Shown: piece after piece, positions 29,015-34,024 of the stretch
Layout: every line of letters begins with the position of its first letter
Numbering within the stretch: the stretch's first letter is position 1
Assembly: GCF_031624495.1 (NCBI RefSeq)
Contig: NZ_JAMQOP010000001.1
Location: forward strand, 1,240,001-1,304,000
Origin: Halogeometricum sp. S1BR25-6
GTDB lineage: Archaea; Halobacteriota; Halobacteria; Halobacteriales; Haloferacaceae
Length of the DNA stretch: 64,000 nucleotides
Direction of reading: 5' to 3'
The notes under the pieces: model-generated
What the model was told of the DNA's origin: nothing
Databases searched by the model: none
The model's input: the letters and a program-made list of their open reading frames with translations, nothing else
Position numbers and translations under genes: made by a program

Positions 29015-29119
29015 CTCGCGCCCGCCGACGGCGCCGCGACGCTCCCGGGACCACCGGACGGCGGGGGGAGCGTCGCGGCAGTTTTTTACGCTGCCCGGCG
29101 CTCTTTTTACTCAGATTAC

Positions 29120-30562
29120 ATGAGCCGAGCAGCCGTCCTCGCCCTCCTCGTGGTGCTGTCGTCTGTCGCCGGCATCGGTCTCGTCGACGCCCAGACGACG
29201 ACGGCGTTCATCTCGAACGCCACGGTGTCGCCCGAACAACCGGCGCCCGGCGAGCAGTTCACCGTTCGGACGACGGTTCAGAACAGTCAACAGAGCGGCG
29301 GCGGGTTCGAGATAACCGACGTGTACGTGCGTCAACGCGGGTCGACCGACGACGTCGCCCGCGTGGAAGACATCGGGACGCTCCCGCCGGGGTCGGACGT
29401 CACCGTGCCCCTGACAGCGTCGTTCGACTCGACCGGCACGCGCGAACTCCGCGTCTACGTCGTCGGCCGGAACCCGAGCGACGAAGTCGTCCGCCTGCAG
29501 TACCCCGTCGTCGTCACCGTCCGCGAAGGCGGTCCGCAGGTCGGCGTCTCCGTCGAGGACGCCGTCGTCGGCACCGAGGGGACGGTGCAGGTGACGGCCG
29601 CCAACGGGGAAGACACCGCCGTCCGCAACCTCCGCGTCTCGCTCTCCGGCGACGCCGGTATCAGGGATGACACGCGCGTGCTGGCGACGCTCCCGGGCAA
29701 CGAGTCCCGGACGTTCAACTTCTCCGTGACGCCGCGGTCGCAGACGACCGACCTGGCGGCGCGGGTGCAGTACACCACGACTTCCGGAAGCACGCGAACC
29801 GTCGCCGAGTCGGTCACGCTCGACGCCGACCCCCTCCGCGAGAGCGTCCAACTCGACGCGAGCGTCGTCGGCGACGGGGCCGACCCCGACGTGGCCGTCG
29901 ACGTCGCCAACCTCGGGAACGCCCCCCTCGAAGACGCCGTCGTCGAACTCGCTCGCGACGGGAACGTGCTGTTCCGCCGGCCCGTGGCGGACGTCGCCCC
30001 CGACGAAACCCGGACCACCCGCGTCAACGTCTCGAACGTCGAGACCGGACCGATGGACGTCCGCGTCCGCTACGAGACGGGCGGGCGGACCGGCGAGGCG
30101 ACGACGCGGCTGAACTACTCGGCCAACCCCGGCCGCATCGAACTCACCGGTCTCGACTACGAGACGGAGGAGGGGAAACTCCACGTCTCCGGGACGGCCA
30201 GCAACGTCGGCCTCGGCGACGTGGACAGCGTCGTCGTCCGCGTCGTCCGCACGGAGAACGTGACGCCCGCCCGCCCCAACCCCGAGTACTTCGTCGGGAG
30301 CATCCCGGCGAGCGACTTCTCCTCGTTCGACCTCTACGCCGAAGTCGACCCGGGGACGGAGACGGTGCCCATCGAGGTGACGTACCTTGCGAACGGCGCC
30401 GAGCGGACGACGCGGACCGAACTCGACGTGAGCGACCTGAACGCCCAACCCGCCGAGGAGGGAGACAGCGGCGGCCTCCCGACGCTTCCGCTCGTCGTCC
30501 TCGCGGCGCTGGCGCTGCTCGTCATCGTCGGCGTCGCCGGGTACGCGTACTTCCGACGGTGA
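29120..30562 (+). CDS. Secreted, C-terminally anchored CARDB-like adhesion-domain protein
   Basis: 480 residues. A Sec signal peptide (1-25, cleavage near VDAQ) and a C-terminal membrane segment (about 455-478) ending in YFRR place the body outside the cell. The body is beta-rich, with about four repeats of CARDB/COG1361 type: each has a stretch like VSPEQPAPGEQFTVRTTV or VDVANLGNAPLEDAVVEL followed by DV..L.PG...T. It overlaps the ATPase gene downstream by 4 nt, so it is the first gene of a three-gene ABC cluster. It may be the extracellular adaptor or substrate receptor of that transporter. Two TTTTTTAC/CTTTTTAC boxes precede the start. Confidence 0.8.
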   Translation: MSRAAVLALLVVLSSVAGIGLVDAQTTTAFISNATVSPEQPAPGEQFTVRTTVQNSQQSGGGFEITDVYVRQRGSTDDVARVEDIGTLPPGSDVTVPLTASFDSTGTRELRVYVVGRNPSDEVVRLQYPVVVTVREGGPQVGVSVEDAVVGTEGTVQVTAANGEDTAVRNLRVSLSGDAGIRDDTRVLATLPGNESRTFNFSVTPRSQTTDLAARVQYTTTSGSTRTVAESVTLDADPLRESVQLDASVVGDGADPDVAVDVANLGNAPLEDAVVELARDGNVLFRRPVADVAPDETRTTRVNVSNVETGPMDVRVRYETGGRTGEATTRLNYSANPGRIELTGLDYETEEGKLHVSGTASNVGLGDVDSVVVRVVRTENVTPARPNPEYFVGSIPASDFSSFDLYAEVDPGTETVPIEVTYLANGAERTTRTELDVSDLNAQPAEEGDSGGLPTLPLVVLAALALLVIVGVAGYAYFRR

Positions 30563-31278
30563 CGACGATGTCGGATTCAATCATCGAACTCGACGGCGTC
30601 TGGAAGCGCTACGAAAGCGGGTCCGAGACCGTCGAGGCGCTGAAAGACGTTAACTTCGCAGCCAAACCGGGCGAGTTCGTCGCCATCATGGGGCCGTCCG
30701 GCAGCGGGAAGTCGACGATGCTGAACGTGCTCGGCCTCCTCGACGTCCCCACGGAGGGCGTCGTCCGCCTCGACGGCCGCGACGTGACCGACCTCTCCGA
30801 CGAGGAGATGACGACCCAGCGGAAGGAGTCCATCGGTTTCATCTTCCAGGACTTCTTTCTCATCCCGACGCTGTCGGCCATCGAGAACGTGGAGGTCCCG
30901 ACGCTGTTCGGCCGCGACCCGACGGCCCGCGACAGGGGTGAGCGACTGCTCGGACGGGTCGGCCTCGGGGAGCGAGTCGCGCACCGACCCGACCAGCTCT
31001 CGGGCGGGCAGAAACAGCGCGTCGCCATCGCCCGCGCCCTCATCAACGAACCGCGCATCCTGCTCGCGGACGAACCGACGGGCAACCTCGACCGGAAGAC
31101 GGGTCGGGACGTCCTCGAACTTTTCACCGAGTTGAAAACCGAGGAGGACGTGGCGGTCATCGCCGTCACGCACGACGACCAACTCCGAAAGTACGCCGAC
31201 CGGGTCGTCAACCTCGTCGACGGCGTGCTGACCGAAGAGGGGAAGGCGGACGAACTGCGGGAGGAGTTCGGCACGTGA
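30559..31278 (+). CDS. ABC transporter ATP-binding protein (LolD/MacB-type)
   Basis: 239 residues. Walker A GPSGSGKS (45-52), signature LSGGQKQR, Walker B ILLADEPTGNLD and H-loop VTHDD. The LADEPTGNLD sequence is the mark of the LolD/MacB/FtsE group, which powers extraction or mechanical work and not substrate import. GTG at 30559 overlaps the upstream stop; an ATG at 30568 is an alternative start. Partner of the FtsX-like permease that follows. Confidence 0.93.
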   Translation: MTTMSDSIIELDGVWKRYESGSETVEALKDVNFAAKPGEFVAIMGPSGSGKSTMLNVLGLLDVPTEGVVRLDGRDVTDLSDEEMTTQRKESIGFIFQDFFLIPTLSAIENVEVPTLFGRDPTARDRGERLLGRVGLGERVAHRPDQLSGGQKQRVAIARALINEPRILLADEPTGNLDRKTGRDVLELFTELKTEEDVAVIAVTHDDQLRKYADRVVNLVDGVLTEEGKADELREEFGT

Positions 31279-32420
31279 GCGCCCTCGAACGGCTCTACCG
31301 GCAGGTGCCCGCCCTCCTCATGGCGCGGCGGAACCTCTCGCGGAACCGCCTCCGCTCGGGGCTGGCGGCGCTCGGCATCATCATCGGCGTTCTCGCCATC
31401 GCCTCGCTCGGCATGTTCGGGACGACGCTGCGGACGGGCGCGAGCGAGCAACTCGGCGACATCGGCAACGAGATACAGATATCGCCGAACGCCCAGGAGG
31501 GCTTCGAGCGACTCACCGACCGCGACGTGGCCGACATCAGACGCGTCACCGACGAGGGGACGGTGGTCCCCATCAGACAGAAGACGGCGACGCTGACGAG
31601 GGGGGACGATCGGACGATAACGACGGTGTACGGCATCGAGAATCCCGGCGCGCTGTACGAGGCGTCGGAGGGGCAGTCGCCGGAGCGCCTCCGACAGGGG
31701 GCGCTCGTCGGGTCCTCGCTCGCCGAGCGGTTGGAGCTACAGGTGGGTAACCGAATCACGCTCGACAACGACTCCTACCGCGTCGTCGGCATCCTCGAAG
31801 AGCAGGACGGCATCTCGCTTCTGAACCCCAACAGCGCCGTCATCGTCCCCCTCGAATCGTTCGACGAGTCGGGCTACTCGCAGGTCATTGTCCGCTCGCC
31901 GTCGGGGACGGCGGCCAACGAGACGGCCGCCGCCGTGCGCGAGGAACTGAACGACCGCGAGGAGCGGGTGACCATCTTCGAGTTGGGCAGCATCACCGAA
32001 GGCATCAACCAGTTCTTCGGCATCCTCAACGCCTTCCTCATCGGCATCGGCTCCATCTCCCTCGTCGTCGCCGGCGTGGCCATCTTGAACGTGATGCTGA
32101 TGAGCACCATCGAGCGCAGACAGGAGATCGGCGTGCTCCGCGCCGTCGGCGTCCAGAAGCTCGACGTAGTGAAGATGATACTCGCCGAGGCGGGACTGCT
32201 CGGCTTCGTCGGCGGCTTCCTCGGCGCCGTCCTCTCGGTTTTCGCCGGCCTCGTCCTCAATCAGGTGGTGTTGTCGGACCCCCTCCTGACGTTCGCGCCG
32301 GTGAACCTGATGTACATCGGGCTGGCCGTCGTGTTCGGCATCGTCACGAGCGTCCTGAGCGGGCTGTATCCGGCGTGGAAGGCGGCCTCCGAGCGGCCCG
32401 TGGAGTCGCTGCGGAAGTAA
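31275..32420 (+). CDS. ABC transporter permease (MacB/FtsX-type)
   Basis: 381 residues. One N-terminal membrane segment (ALGIIIGVLAIASLGMFG), a large extracellular MacB-like domain (about 60-250) and three C-terminal segments, ending in GLYPAWKAASERPVESLR, the standard end of MacB/LolC-type permeases. The GTG start overlaps the ATPase stop. With the ATPase and the secreted CARDB-like protein it forms a probable mechanotransducing export or surface-organising complex. No bacterial-type MacA is present. Confidence 0.92.
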   Translation: MSALERLYRQVPALLMARRNLSRNRLRSGLAALGIIIGVLAIASLGMFGTTLRTGASEQLGDIGNEIQISPNAQEGFERLTDRDVADIRRVTDEGTVVPIRQKTATLTRGDDRTITTVYGIENPGALYEASEGQSPERLRQGALVGSSLAERLELQVGNRITLDNDSYRVVGILEEQDGISLLNPNSAVIVPLESFDESGYSQVIVRSPSGTAANETAAAVREELNDREERVTIFELGSITEGINQFFGILNAFLIGIGSISLVVAGVAILNVMLMSTIERRQEIGVLRAVGVQKLDVVKMILAEAGLLGFVGGFLGAVLSVFAGLVLNQVVLSDPLLTFAPVNLMYIGLAVVFGIVTSVLSGLYPAWKAASERPVESLRK

Positions 32421-32474: not shown

Positions 32475-33623
32475 TCAGATGAGGTCGTGTTCGGCGAGTC
32501 GCTCGACGGCCTCGCGCAGTCGCTCCTCGCTCGCAGCGTAGGAGATGCGGGCGTAGCCGGGCGACCCGAACGCCGACCCGGGGACGGTGGCGACGTGGGC
32601 CTCCTCGATGGCGCGTTCGCACCACGAGGTGTCGTCCTCGTCGACGGGCAGCATCATGTAGAACGCGCCGTCACCGACGGGCACCTCGACGTCGTGCTCT
32701 GCGAACAGGTCCGCGAGCATGTCGCGTCGCTCGCGGAACGCGTCGCGCATCTCGGAGACGGCCTCGTCGGTGTTCGTGATGGCCTCGACGCCCGCGTGCT
32801 GGACGAAGTTCACGGCGCACGACACCGAGTGCGAGTGGAGCTTCGCCGCCTGCGAGACGAGGTCCTCGGGCGCGTGGAGGTAGCCGAGGCGCCACCCCGT
32901 CATCGAGTACGCCTTCGAGAAGCCGTTTATCGTTACCGTCCGCTCGGCCATCCCGTCCATGGAGGCGAGGCTCGTGAGGTCGGCGTCGTACGTTATCTCC
33001 TTGTATATCTCGTCGGAGATGACCGTGATGTCGTGTTCGACCGCCAGGTCGCGGACGCCTTCGAGGGCCGCGTCGGAGTAGACGGCGCCGGTCGGGTTCG
33101 ACGGCGAGTTGACGACGAGCAGTTCGGTGTCGTCGGAGACCGCATCCGAGAGGTCGTCGAGTGCGGGTTCGAGTTGGAAGTCGTACGGCGCGAGGTCGAC
33201 GCGGTTCAGCGACCCGTTCGAGAGCTTCGCCATCGCCTCGTAGGAGACCCACGCGGGGTCGAGGAGAACGACTTCGTCGCCGTCGTCGACGAGCGTCTGG
33301 AACGTCTCGAACAGCGCCTGCTTCCCGCCGGGCGTGACGATGACTTCGTCAGCGTCGGCGTCGATGCCGTCGCCCTGTAGTTTCTCCGCGATGGCCTCGC
33401 GGAGTTCGCGGATGCCGTTCGAGGAGGTGTAGCCGGTGTGTCCGGCGTCCATCGCCTCCTGTCCGGCGTCGACGACGTTCTGCGGCGTCGGGAAATCCGG
33501 CTCCCCGACCGAGAGGTCGACGACGTCGACCCCCTGTTCTTCGAGTTCGCCCGCCTTGTTGCTGATGGCGAGCGTCGCGCTGGGTTCGACCCGCTGGACG
33601 CGGGCTGCGAAGTCGAAACTCAT
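32475..33623 (-). CDS. Class I/II (aspartate-type) aminotransferase
   Basis: 382 residues, fold-type I PLP enzyme. K237 in NGFSKAYSMTGWRLGY forms the internal aldimine; N176 (NSPSNPTG), D204 and Y207 (SDEIYKEI) hold the cofactor; the C-terminal RISYAAS supplies the substrate-carboxylate arginine. Family I-gamma enzymes of this kind act on aspartate, aromatic or branched amino acids. The ATG overlaps the ribH stop (ATGA), so its translation is coupled to riboflavin synthesis gene expression, though a metabolic link is not obvious. Confidence 0.92.
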   Translation of the reverse strand: MSFDFAARVQRVEPSATLAISNKAGELEEQGVDVVDLSVGEPDFPTPQNVVDAGQEAMDAGHTGYTSSNGIRELREAIAEKLQGDGIDADADEVIVTPGGKQALFETFQTLVDDGDEVVLLDPAWVSYEAMAKLSNGSLNRVDLAPYDFQLEPALDDLSDAVSDDTELLVVNSPSNPTGAVYSDAALEGVRDLAVEHDITVISDEIYKEITYDADLTSLASMDGMAERTVTINGFSKAYSMTGWRLGYLHAPEDLVSQAAKLHSHSVSCAVNFVQHAGVEAITNTDEAVSEMRDAFRERRDMLADLFAEHDVEVPVGDGAFYMMLPVDEDDTSWCERAIEEAHVATVPGSAFGSPGYARISYAASEERLREAVERLAEHDLI

Positions 33624-34024
33624 GCTAGCACCTCCACCATATCGACCGCCGCGTTTACCGCTTCCGCACCTTTCCCGACGCGCTCTCTCGCCTCGGCGCC
33701 GCTCTGTCCCGGCCCGCTGACGCCCAGCGTCACCGGTTTGTCCCGTTCGAGGCTCACGTCCGTCAGCGCCTGCGCCGTCGCGTCGCCGATGACCCGGTCG
33801 TGCGCGGTGTCGCCGGTGACGATGGCGCCGACGACGACGACGGCGTCGACGTCGTCCCGGCGGGCGAGTCGGTCCGCGGCCAACGGCGAGTCGTAGACGC
33901 CCGGTACGCGGAGGACGTCCGCCACGTCGGCGCCGCGTTCGGCCGCGGCGTCGCGGGCGGCGTCCTCCATTCCGTCGGTGACCGAGGCGTTGAATTCGGC
34001 CACCACGAATCCCAGTGTAACCAT
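33620..34024 (-). CDS. ribH: 6,7-dimethyl-8-ribityllumazine synthase
   Basis: 134 residues, the short archaeal form. The substrate-binding VAEFNASVT at 8-16, VPGVYDSPL, GAIVTGDTAHDRV with catalytic H75, and PVTLGV are family motifs. The enzyme condenses 5-amino-6-ribitylaminouracil with dihydroxybutanone phosphate, the step before riboflavin. It forms a self-assembling cytoplasmic particle in other organisms. First gene of a two-gene unit with the aminotransferase. Confidence 0.93.
   Translation of the reverse strand: MVTLGFVVAEFNASVTDGMEDAARDAAAERGADVADVLRVPGVYDSPLAADRLARRDDVDAVVVVGAIVTGDTAHDRVIGDATAQALTDVSLERDKPVTLGVSGPGQSGAEARERVGKGAEAVNAAVDMVEVLA

Follow-up and report, generated by a model that had tools for sequence, protein, structure and literature searches.

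A CARDB/Ig-Repeat Surface Protein as Candidate Adaptor of an Archaeal MacB-Fold ABC Transporter

Introduction

How might a MacB-type ATP-binding cassette (ABC) transporter reach beyond the membrane when the gene in the position of its adaptor codes for a protein that does not resemble any adaptor? This question is raised by three genes in the genome of Halogeometricum sp. S1BR25-6. They lie head to tail on the forward strand between positions 29,120 and 32,420 of a 64,000-nucleotide stretch (assembly GCF_031624495.1, contig NZ_JAMQOP010000001.1, positions 1,240,001 to 1,304,000; hereafter the window), and code for a surface protein with immunoglobulin-like (Ig-like) repeats of the CARDB family, an ABC ATPase and a MacB-fold permease. 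The original prediction, made from the sequence of this stretch, held that the CARDB protein takes the place of the partner on which MacB-type transporters act, and that the system could release or arrange surface lipoproteins.

Reviews (including PMC5985334 and PMC8277102) describe MacB-type machines as doing work outside the membrane, and the YknWXYZ system as protecting against a membrane-active peptide. The analysis presented here leaves the original interpretation partly supported. We regard it as an evenly balanced proposition that the operon codes for a MacB-fold (type VII) extruder with the CARDB protein as its dedicated extracellular adaptor, the archaeal counterpart of YknWXYZ and Spr0693-0695.

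Results and Discussion

The permease matches the Pfam families MacB_PCD (5e-27) and FtsX (2e-19). Its AlphaFold2 model (predicted local distance difference test, pLDDT, 86.7) consists of one transmembrane (TM) helix, an outer domain spanning residues 61-237 and then three TM helices. With the MacB-like outer domain and the accompanying ABC ATPase, this layout has all the features of a MacB-fold (type VII) ABC transporter. The best fold match is Spr0695 (5xu1_M, Z 26.5, root-mean-square deviation (rmsd) 6.9, 355 residues), followed by LolE (9rld_E, Z 25.2) and YtrF (9o9x_C, Z 24.2). Escherichia coli MacB (5nik_J) aligns with Z 19.9 and rmsd 3.5 over 367 residues at 27% identity, and FtsX (8tzj_C) with Z 16.6. 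The prediction of a MacB-type permease is confirmed. The fold, common to MacB, LolE and Spr0695, is used for mechanotransmission.

The ATPase belongs to Pfam ABC_tran (8e-36) and carries the motifs GPSGSGKS, LSGGQ, LLADE and THD. Its closest solved structure is MJ0796 from Methanocaldococcus jannaschii (1f3o, E 1.2e-65). The earlier label "LolD-type" describes this protein in a loose sense, but the score against the NCBIfam LolD model remains below the family cutoff (231.8 vs 307.75). Scores of the operon proteins against the models LolCE (56.8 vs 362.45), FtsE (193.8 vs 264.85) and FtsX_Gneg (24.8 vs 255) are also below the respective cutoffs.

The first gene of the operon codes for a protein of 480 residues with three stretches that match Pfam CARDB (1e-9). 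AlphaFold2 predicts four Ig-like domains (D1 to D4) followed by one C-terminal helix with a mean pLDDT of 91.4 (model m1e3aa9005340), which agrees with the anchored beta-repeat protein of the original prediction. The chain ends in RR. When conservation is multiplied by alignment occupancy, D4 (0.54) ranks before D1 (0.44), D3 (0.37) and D2 (0.24), and the D4 signature (N..G, YFVG, DF..F) is found from haloarchaea through Methanococci. A most conserved D4 and an optional D2 fit a near-membrane dock with a variable spacer above it. The structure alignment contained the window protein and 55 of 79 CARDB references. Fold searches returned generic Ig stacks such as transglutaminase C-terminal domains, complement and Fusexin1; no adaptor is among the matches listed (50 in each search), which is not evidence of absence. 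Amid these many Ig folds is a domain of archaeal Fusexin1 (7p4l_C) to which D2 can be aligned (Z 12.4, rmsd 1.9, 94 residues, 26% identity).

The three genes overlap by four nucleotides at each junction through the sequence GTGA, as had been claimed. A second possible start codon of the ATPase gene, an ATG at 30568, lies nine bases downstream of the GTG; if translation began there, the overlap with the CARDB gene would vanish. Among 114 distinct three-gene relatives, an overlap of the type ATGA, GTGA or TTGA is kept at the CARDB/ATPase junction in 73 and at the ATPase/permease junction in 95, which exceeds chance. In the Halogeometricum genome, the permease and the CARDB protein are each present as a single strong copy.

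How general is the association of this permease with a CARDB protein? A survey of the class at E<=1e-3 found permease matches in 191 and CARDB matches in 120 of 194 genomes, many of the permease matches representing a distant class. We therefore took E<=1e-70 to delimit the subfamily of the window permease. Counted by hand, the family to which the window belongs has this subfamily in 67 of 70 genomes, and a second family (f4), which includes Natrinema limicola, has it in 2 of 49. At 40 diverse haloarchaeal loci a CARDB gene lies upstream of the permease without exception; 37 have the order CARDB-ATPase-permease, and in three CARDB adjoins the permease without such an ATPase gene. This sample was picked for diversity from the permease survey after the CARDB survey had been seen and is not blind. 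A scan of named genomes gave a second set, the best 80 of 574 relatives, with CARDB at 80 of 80 loci, the full order at 77 and no ATPase gene at three. CARDB-ABC linkage is therefore not rare in other genomes. The permease alignment used here comprises the window sequence and 64 of the 80 named permeases; one further alignment consists of hand-picked diverse rows.

Likewise, CARDB accompanies all 120 distinct permeases that score at least 300 bits against a profile of the subfamily, although this cut is not independent because the profile was built from CARDB-linked permeases. The three sets overlap, and tandem permeases were counted singly. Among 30 permeases below 300 bits, seven have a weak CARDB-like gene and an ATPase, 14 an ATPase only and nine neither. 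As an independent control, a second haloarchaeal class of MacB-type permeases has CARDB next to none of 14 permeases at 13 loci. Two members of this second class (L225 and L235, genome G123) have no upstream ATPase match of at least 200 bits.

The CARDB-permease pairing within the subfamily is obligate, and D4 is a marker of the operon. When D4 alone served as the query, matches appeared in 55 of 80 genomes of the phylum. Of 30 loci retrieved in this way, 29 have an ATPase (26, one of them, L299, a weak match of 83 bits) or a permease (24) downstream, and 21 have a gene for a Yip1 family protein.

Two variations in gene order deserve mention. Five loci of Methanosarcinales type (L155, L156, L158, L220 and L231; L158 on the minus strand near the left end) show the order ATPase-CARDB-permease with weak CARDB scores of 21-37 bits. 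Two tandem permeases from two separate clades occur at L076-L078 of the 40-locus sample and at L138, L146, L149 and L159 of the named set; these pairs may form a heterodimer like LolC/LolE.

A tree of 150 permeases and that of the window (151 rows) was built by a quick method and midpoint-rooted, with a program warning of long branches. The main body of CARDB-linked permeases forms one group of 122 of the 151 rows (Shimodaira-Hasegawa-like approximate likelihood ratio test, SH-aLRT, 99). This group spans Archaeoglobus, Methanothermococcus, Methanomicrobia, Methanosarcinales and haloarchaea; six rows with weak CARDB-like neighbours fall outside. The six permeases without an ATPase gene (L044, L050, L053, L090, L110 and L117) form one clade (SH-aLRT 99), which fits a single loss, and all six retain CARDB. 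Another permease of this subfamily is encoded elsewhere in at least G081, G158, G113 and the genome of L090, so that an ATPase could be shared. These loci either borrow an ATPase or code for a motor-less CARDB-permease pair.

Clustering of the neighbours of the 80 named loci (25 largest clusters, most unannotated) revealed a recurrent membrane protein directly upstream of CARDB as well as a common chromosome context (aspC-ribH, helicase). Pfam identifies Yip1 in four of five candidates for this protein (2e-29 to 4e-18); the fifth, L137, lies downstream of the operon and has no match. Within the named set, Yip1 precedes CARDB at 13 of 13 methanogen loci (L141, L142, L147, L148, L150, L151, L153-L158 and L160; split in L156) and is absent from the single Archaeoglobus locus. 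In the phylum of Methanothermococcus, 29 of 32 genomes have a match, and 20 loci were examined. Eleven of the 12 loci with a strong permease have CARDB and an ATPase; in ten of these Yip1 comes first, which gives Yip1-CARDB-ATPase-permease. Locus L257 is cut off by the end of its contig. Some of these Methanococci loci contain extra variable membrane open reading frames (ORFs) inserted between the operon genes. The ATPases of the eleven operons are 74-92% identical to MJ0796. Eight weaker permeases have a weak CARDB-like gene in six cases, on the opposite strand in four.

Plasmid pMETHO01 of Methanomethylovorans also carries the operon in the order Yip1-CARDB-ATPase-permease (L277, 1183-8936). 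Here an IS1 transposase separates Yip1 from CARDB, and an antiviral gene of the viperin family follows 2 kb downstream. This copy is mobile, and defence genes may be its neighbours.

The methanogen order has a bacterial parallel. In a Bacillus velezensis record, a Yip1 family protein comes first and is followed by an RND-type periplasmic adaptor, then an ABC ATPase and finally an ABC permease; judging from this order and the reviews, the locus is evidently yknWXYZ. Pfam finds Yip1 in the first protein (1.3e-22) and HlyD_D23 in the second (6.7e-14). The permease aligns with that of the window from end to end (hhalign 1.2e-34), and the ATPases are 48% identical. The CARDB protein and the Bacillus adaptor show no detectable similarity (hhalign probability 0.5%). 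A two-sequence BLASTP comparison found no significant similarity between the methanogen and Bacillus Yip1 proteins, which are linked only through the Pfam Yip1 model and a weak profile match (1.9e-6). Two other bacterial records have adaptor, ATPase and permease genes in this order without Yip1.

Pfam finds no HlyD match in the CARDB protein, and the operon in this respect lacks the HlyD-type adaptor of a MacAB/YknXYZ-type pump. The adaptor family TIGR01730 scores above its cutoff in none of 97 haloarchaeal genomes, with short sub-threshold matches in 23; control genomes gave matches in 13 of 14 cases, eight of them above the cutoff. Since CARDB stands in the adaptor position, is unlike the adaptor, and no haloarchaeal TIGR01730 match exceeds the cutoff, motor and helper are common to both systems and the adaptor differs. 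The idea that the CARDB protein occupies the place of the partner is thus supported by gene position, by the retention of CARDB after ATPase loss, by the D4 searches and by the TIGR01730 result.

How could such a machine work? By analogy with its relatives, it would contain two permeases, two ATPases and the CARDB adaptor. The C-terminal helix would hold the adaptor in the membrane, and D4 may stand on the outer domain of the permease. A protein without detectable similarity would have replaced the HlyD/MacA-type adaptor, with gene order, motor and, in methanogens, also Yip1 being kept. ATP-driven movement of the outer domain would most likely clear or extrude a membrane-active amphiphile from the membrane's outer face. 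The cargo is a guess by analogy and could be a peptide toxin, for example a halocin. The Ig stalk might space or gate the exit towards the surface layer and so couple the permease to the space beneath it. No outer-membrane channel is to be expected in a cell with a single membrane, unlike in MacAB-TolC.

Somewhat more tentatively, we suggest that the adaptor role of MacB-type extruders arose twice, as an anchored Ig stalk with a distinctive D4 in Euryarchaea and as an HlyD-type tube in bacteria, on the same motor and with a Yip1 helper in methanogens; MJ0796 would be such a motor.

Several observations weigh against assigning the CARDB protein the role of adaptor in a YknWXYZ-like machine. Its length varies from about 300 to 644 residues among relatives, and nothing in it points to a MacA-like hexameric tube. 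Distance correlations (mirror-tree analysis of 119 of the 120 distinct permeases; one CARDB fragment of <250 residues was left out) of the CARDB domains range from 0.63 to 0.73 with the outer domain of the permease and are no higher than those with the ATPase (0.71 to 0.75). The partial correlation of D4 is the lowest of all domains (0.23). These values reflect co-inheritance without an interface signal and do not single out D4. One locus retrieved with D4 (L309) has neither ATPase nor permease within 1.5 kb, and one strong Methanococci locus (L256) lacks both CARDB and ATPase nearby. Among the 66 haloarchaeal loci of the named set, Yip1 lies directly upstream in only four (L085, L088, L094 and L122). 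The window operon has none, and the only Yip1 match of the genome lies on another contig. Finally, the bacterial form with Yip1 is represented by one Bacillus locus.

These points invite other explanations for the same genes. Yip1, the small membrane proteins, the Ig surface protein and the ABC motor could together bend or pinch the membrane, as in remodelling or vesicle formation. Makarova et al. 2015 (PMC5898192) predict such a role for loci of Archaeoglobi, Methanococci and Thermococci where Yip1 (arCOG02054) is found together with S-layer proteins and a SalXY-type ABC transporter, and the inserted membrane ORFs of the Methanococci loci, beside ATPases up to 92% identical to MJ0796, agree with it. 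We consider this explanation unlikely, since most haloarchaeal operons have no Yip1 beside CARDB and the Yip1-adaptor-ATPase-permease order also occurs in Bacillus, where reviews connect it to toxin clearance. Still less probable is a system like FtsEX, in which ATPase and permease would switch the CARDB protein without transport so that it controls a surface enzyme or contact with the S-layer. The fold shared with FtsX, the persistence of CARDB beside permeases that have lost their ATPase gene, and the capacity of type VII machines to act without moving cargo (PMC5985334) are consistent with this idea; the closest full-length fold matches are nevertheless MacB, Spr0695 and LolE, and no surface enzyme appears among the 25 largest neighbour clusters, most of them unannotated.

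The release or arrangement of surface lipoproteins in the manner of LolCDE, as first proposed, now seems very improbable. LolE and LolC are indeed among the closest folds, and the ATPase resembles LolD. But most loci have a single permease gene where LolCDE has two, tandem pairs occur at only 3/40 and 4/80 loci, both NCBIfam Lol models remain below cutoff, and the subfamily is nearly absent from family f4. A system that is frequent in its own family and so rare in f4 does not perform a core envelope function; its patchy occurrence is better explained by an accessory, protective role than by core handling of lipoproteins or the S-layer. Linkage to Yip1 and the yknWXYZ order also argue for an adaptor-type extruder and not for a lipoprotein role. 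The least probable of the four explanations is an ordinary exporter whose operon happens to include the gene for a separate adhesin, the CARDB protein. CARDB domains occur in many surface proteins, and the distance correlations give no interface signal; on the other hand, CARDB is tied to one permease clade in methanogens and haloarchaea, the four-nucleotide overlaps are conserved, CARDB survives the loss of the ATPase, and D4 marks the operon.

The extruder with a CARDB adaptor can be compared with several known systems. It shares with YknWXYZ the order adaptor-ATPase-permease, if CARDB is counted as the adaptor, the MacB-fold permease and, in its methanogen form, Yip1 as the first gene. It differs in that the archaeal adaptor is a C-terminally anchored Ig-repeat protein unlike YknX and that the window operon has no Yip1. 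According to PMC8277102, protection against the SDP toxin by the yknXYZ pump requires YknW. The Spr0693-0694-0695 system of Streptococcus pneumoniae likewise has three genes in the order adaptor-ATPase-permease and provides the best fold match. As described in PMC5768738, Spr0693 docks on Spr0695 and raises ATPase activity; it is an HlyD-type hexameric tube, unlike the CARDB protein. MacAB-TolC has the same permease core domains and TM layout, whereas the window system has a split ATPase and no MacA. LolCDE is similar in the folds of ATPase and permease and differs in its LolC/LolE pair, where the archaeal loci usually have one permease gene, and in lacking the anchored Ig partner. MJ0796, the closest solved ATPase and 74-92% identical to ATPases of Methanococci operons, is linked to LolD and the MacB family in a Chem Rev review (PMC8277102).

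Another related system is the "membrane-associated system with variable gene cassettes" of archaea (Makarova 2014/2015), in which Yip1 (arCOG02054) occurs with S-layer proteins and a SalXY-type ABC transporter, in Methanococci among others. Makarova et al. 2014 (PMC4158269) note that variable membrane-protein loci of Methanococcales have a SalXY-like ABC transporter nearby and suggest a role in defence. The three-gene haloarchaeal form, the obligate CARDB-permease pairing and the parallel to yknWXYZ are not described in the examined passages of this work, and the words "ykn", "MacA" and "adaptor" are missing from both main texts (PMC4158269, PMC5898192). Full-text literature searches, judged by titles and the beginnings of abstracts and with most subscription papers outside their coverage, returned no description of a CARDB-MacB operon. 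The accessible parts of PMC10354927 and PMC11237479 contain nothing on a CARDB-permease operon. Proteomics of extracellular vesicles lists one ABC ATPase, HVO_B0079, among the enriched proteins (PMC10927574). Within the literature searched, we found no earlier description of the haloarchaeal operon as an obligate unit or of the CARDB protein as an adaptor. The methanogen linkage of Yip1 before CARDB and its match to the yknWXYZ order are new here.

This analysis proposes a function class and a partner for a module that nearly every sampled genome of one large haloarchaeal family contains and that also extends through the methanogens. If the proposal is true, a tripartite-type extruder can have its adaptor exchanged for a different protein, which would help to explain the task of adaptors where a cell has no outer membrane. 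It would also assign the much-studied MJ0796 ATPase family to a concrete machine and give it a named partner. The operon occurs in Haloferax species (L083, L084), so that its genes can readily be deleted in a laboratory strain.

Genomic Context

Table 1. Features of the operon and its surroundings in the window
Feature	Position	Strand	Basis
CARDB/Ig-repeat surface protein, proposed extracellular adaptor	29120..30562	+	ORF of 480 residues, ATG; Pfam CARDB 1e-9; AlphaFold2 model
Hydrophobic N-terminal signal peptide, ~residues 1-25	29120..29194	+	Sequence; low-confidence helix 3-16 in AlphaFold2; also in relatives
Ig-like D1, residues ~28-134	29201..29521	+	AlphaFold2, alignment
Ig-like D2, residues 139-237, optional (alignment occupancy 0.54)	29534..29830	+	AlphaFold2, alignment
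Ig-like D3, residues 243-333, strongest Pfam CARDB stretch	29846..30118	+	Pfam, AlphaFold2
Ig-like D4, residues 340-436, membrane-proximal, most conserved, operon marker	30137..30427	+	AlphaFold2, alignment, D4 search
C-terminal TM helix, residues 456-479	30485..30556	+	Sequence, AlphaFold2; kept in relatives
ABC ATPase, LolD/MacB/MJ0796 type	30559..31278	+	ORF of 239 residues, GTG; Pfam; structure-database sequence match
MacB-fold permease, 4 TM helices	31275..32420	+	ORF of 381 residues, GTG; Pfam; AlphaFold2; fold search
Permease outer domain, residues 61-237, MacB_PCD type	31455..31985	+	Pfam, AlphaFold2, fold search
Helicase-like gene	upstream of CARDB gene	opposite	Sequence inspection
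Aminotransferase-like (AspC-like) and RibH-like genes	32475-34024, downstream of permease	-	Sequence inspection

By their sequences, the genes that flank the operon look unrelated to it (Table 1). In the divergent gap between the helicase-like and CARDB genes, where no gene end is visible on the forward strand, a strong GC-rich hairpin followed by a run of T occupies positions 29028-29092 (-37.2 kcal/mol, z -2.77, equalled by 1 of 200 shuffles).

The AspC-like and RibH-like genes flank the operon in both Halogeometricum and Haloferax (L080, L082, L083 and L084). At loci of the Methanoculleus type (L148, L150, L151 and L154) they lie approximately 3.5-5 kb upstream. Their presence near the operon in both groups reflects either an ancient common context or coincidence.

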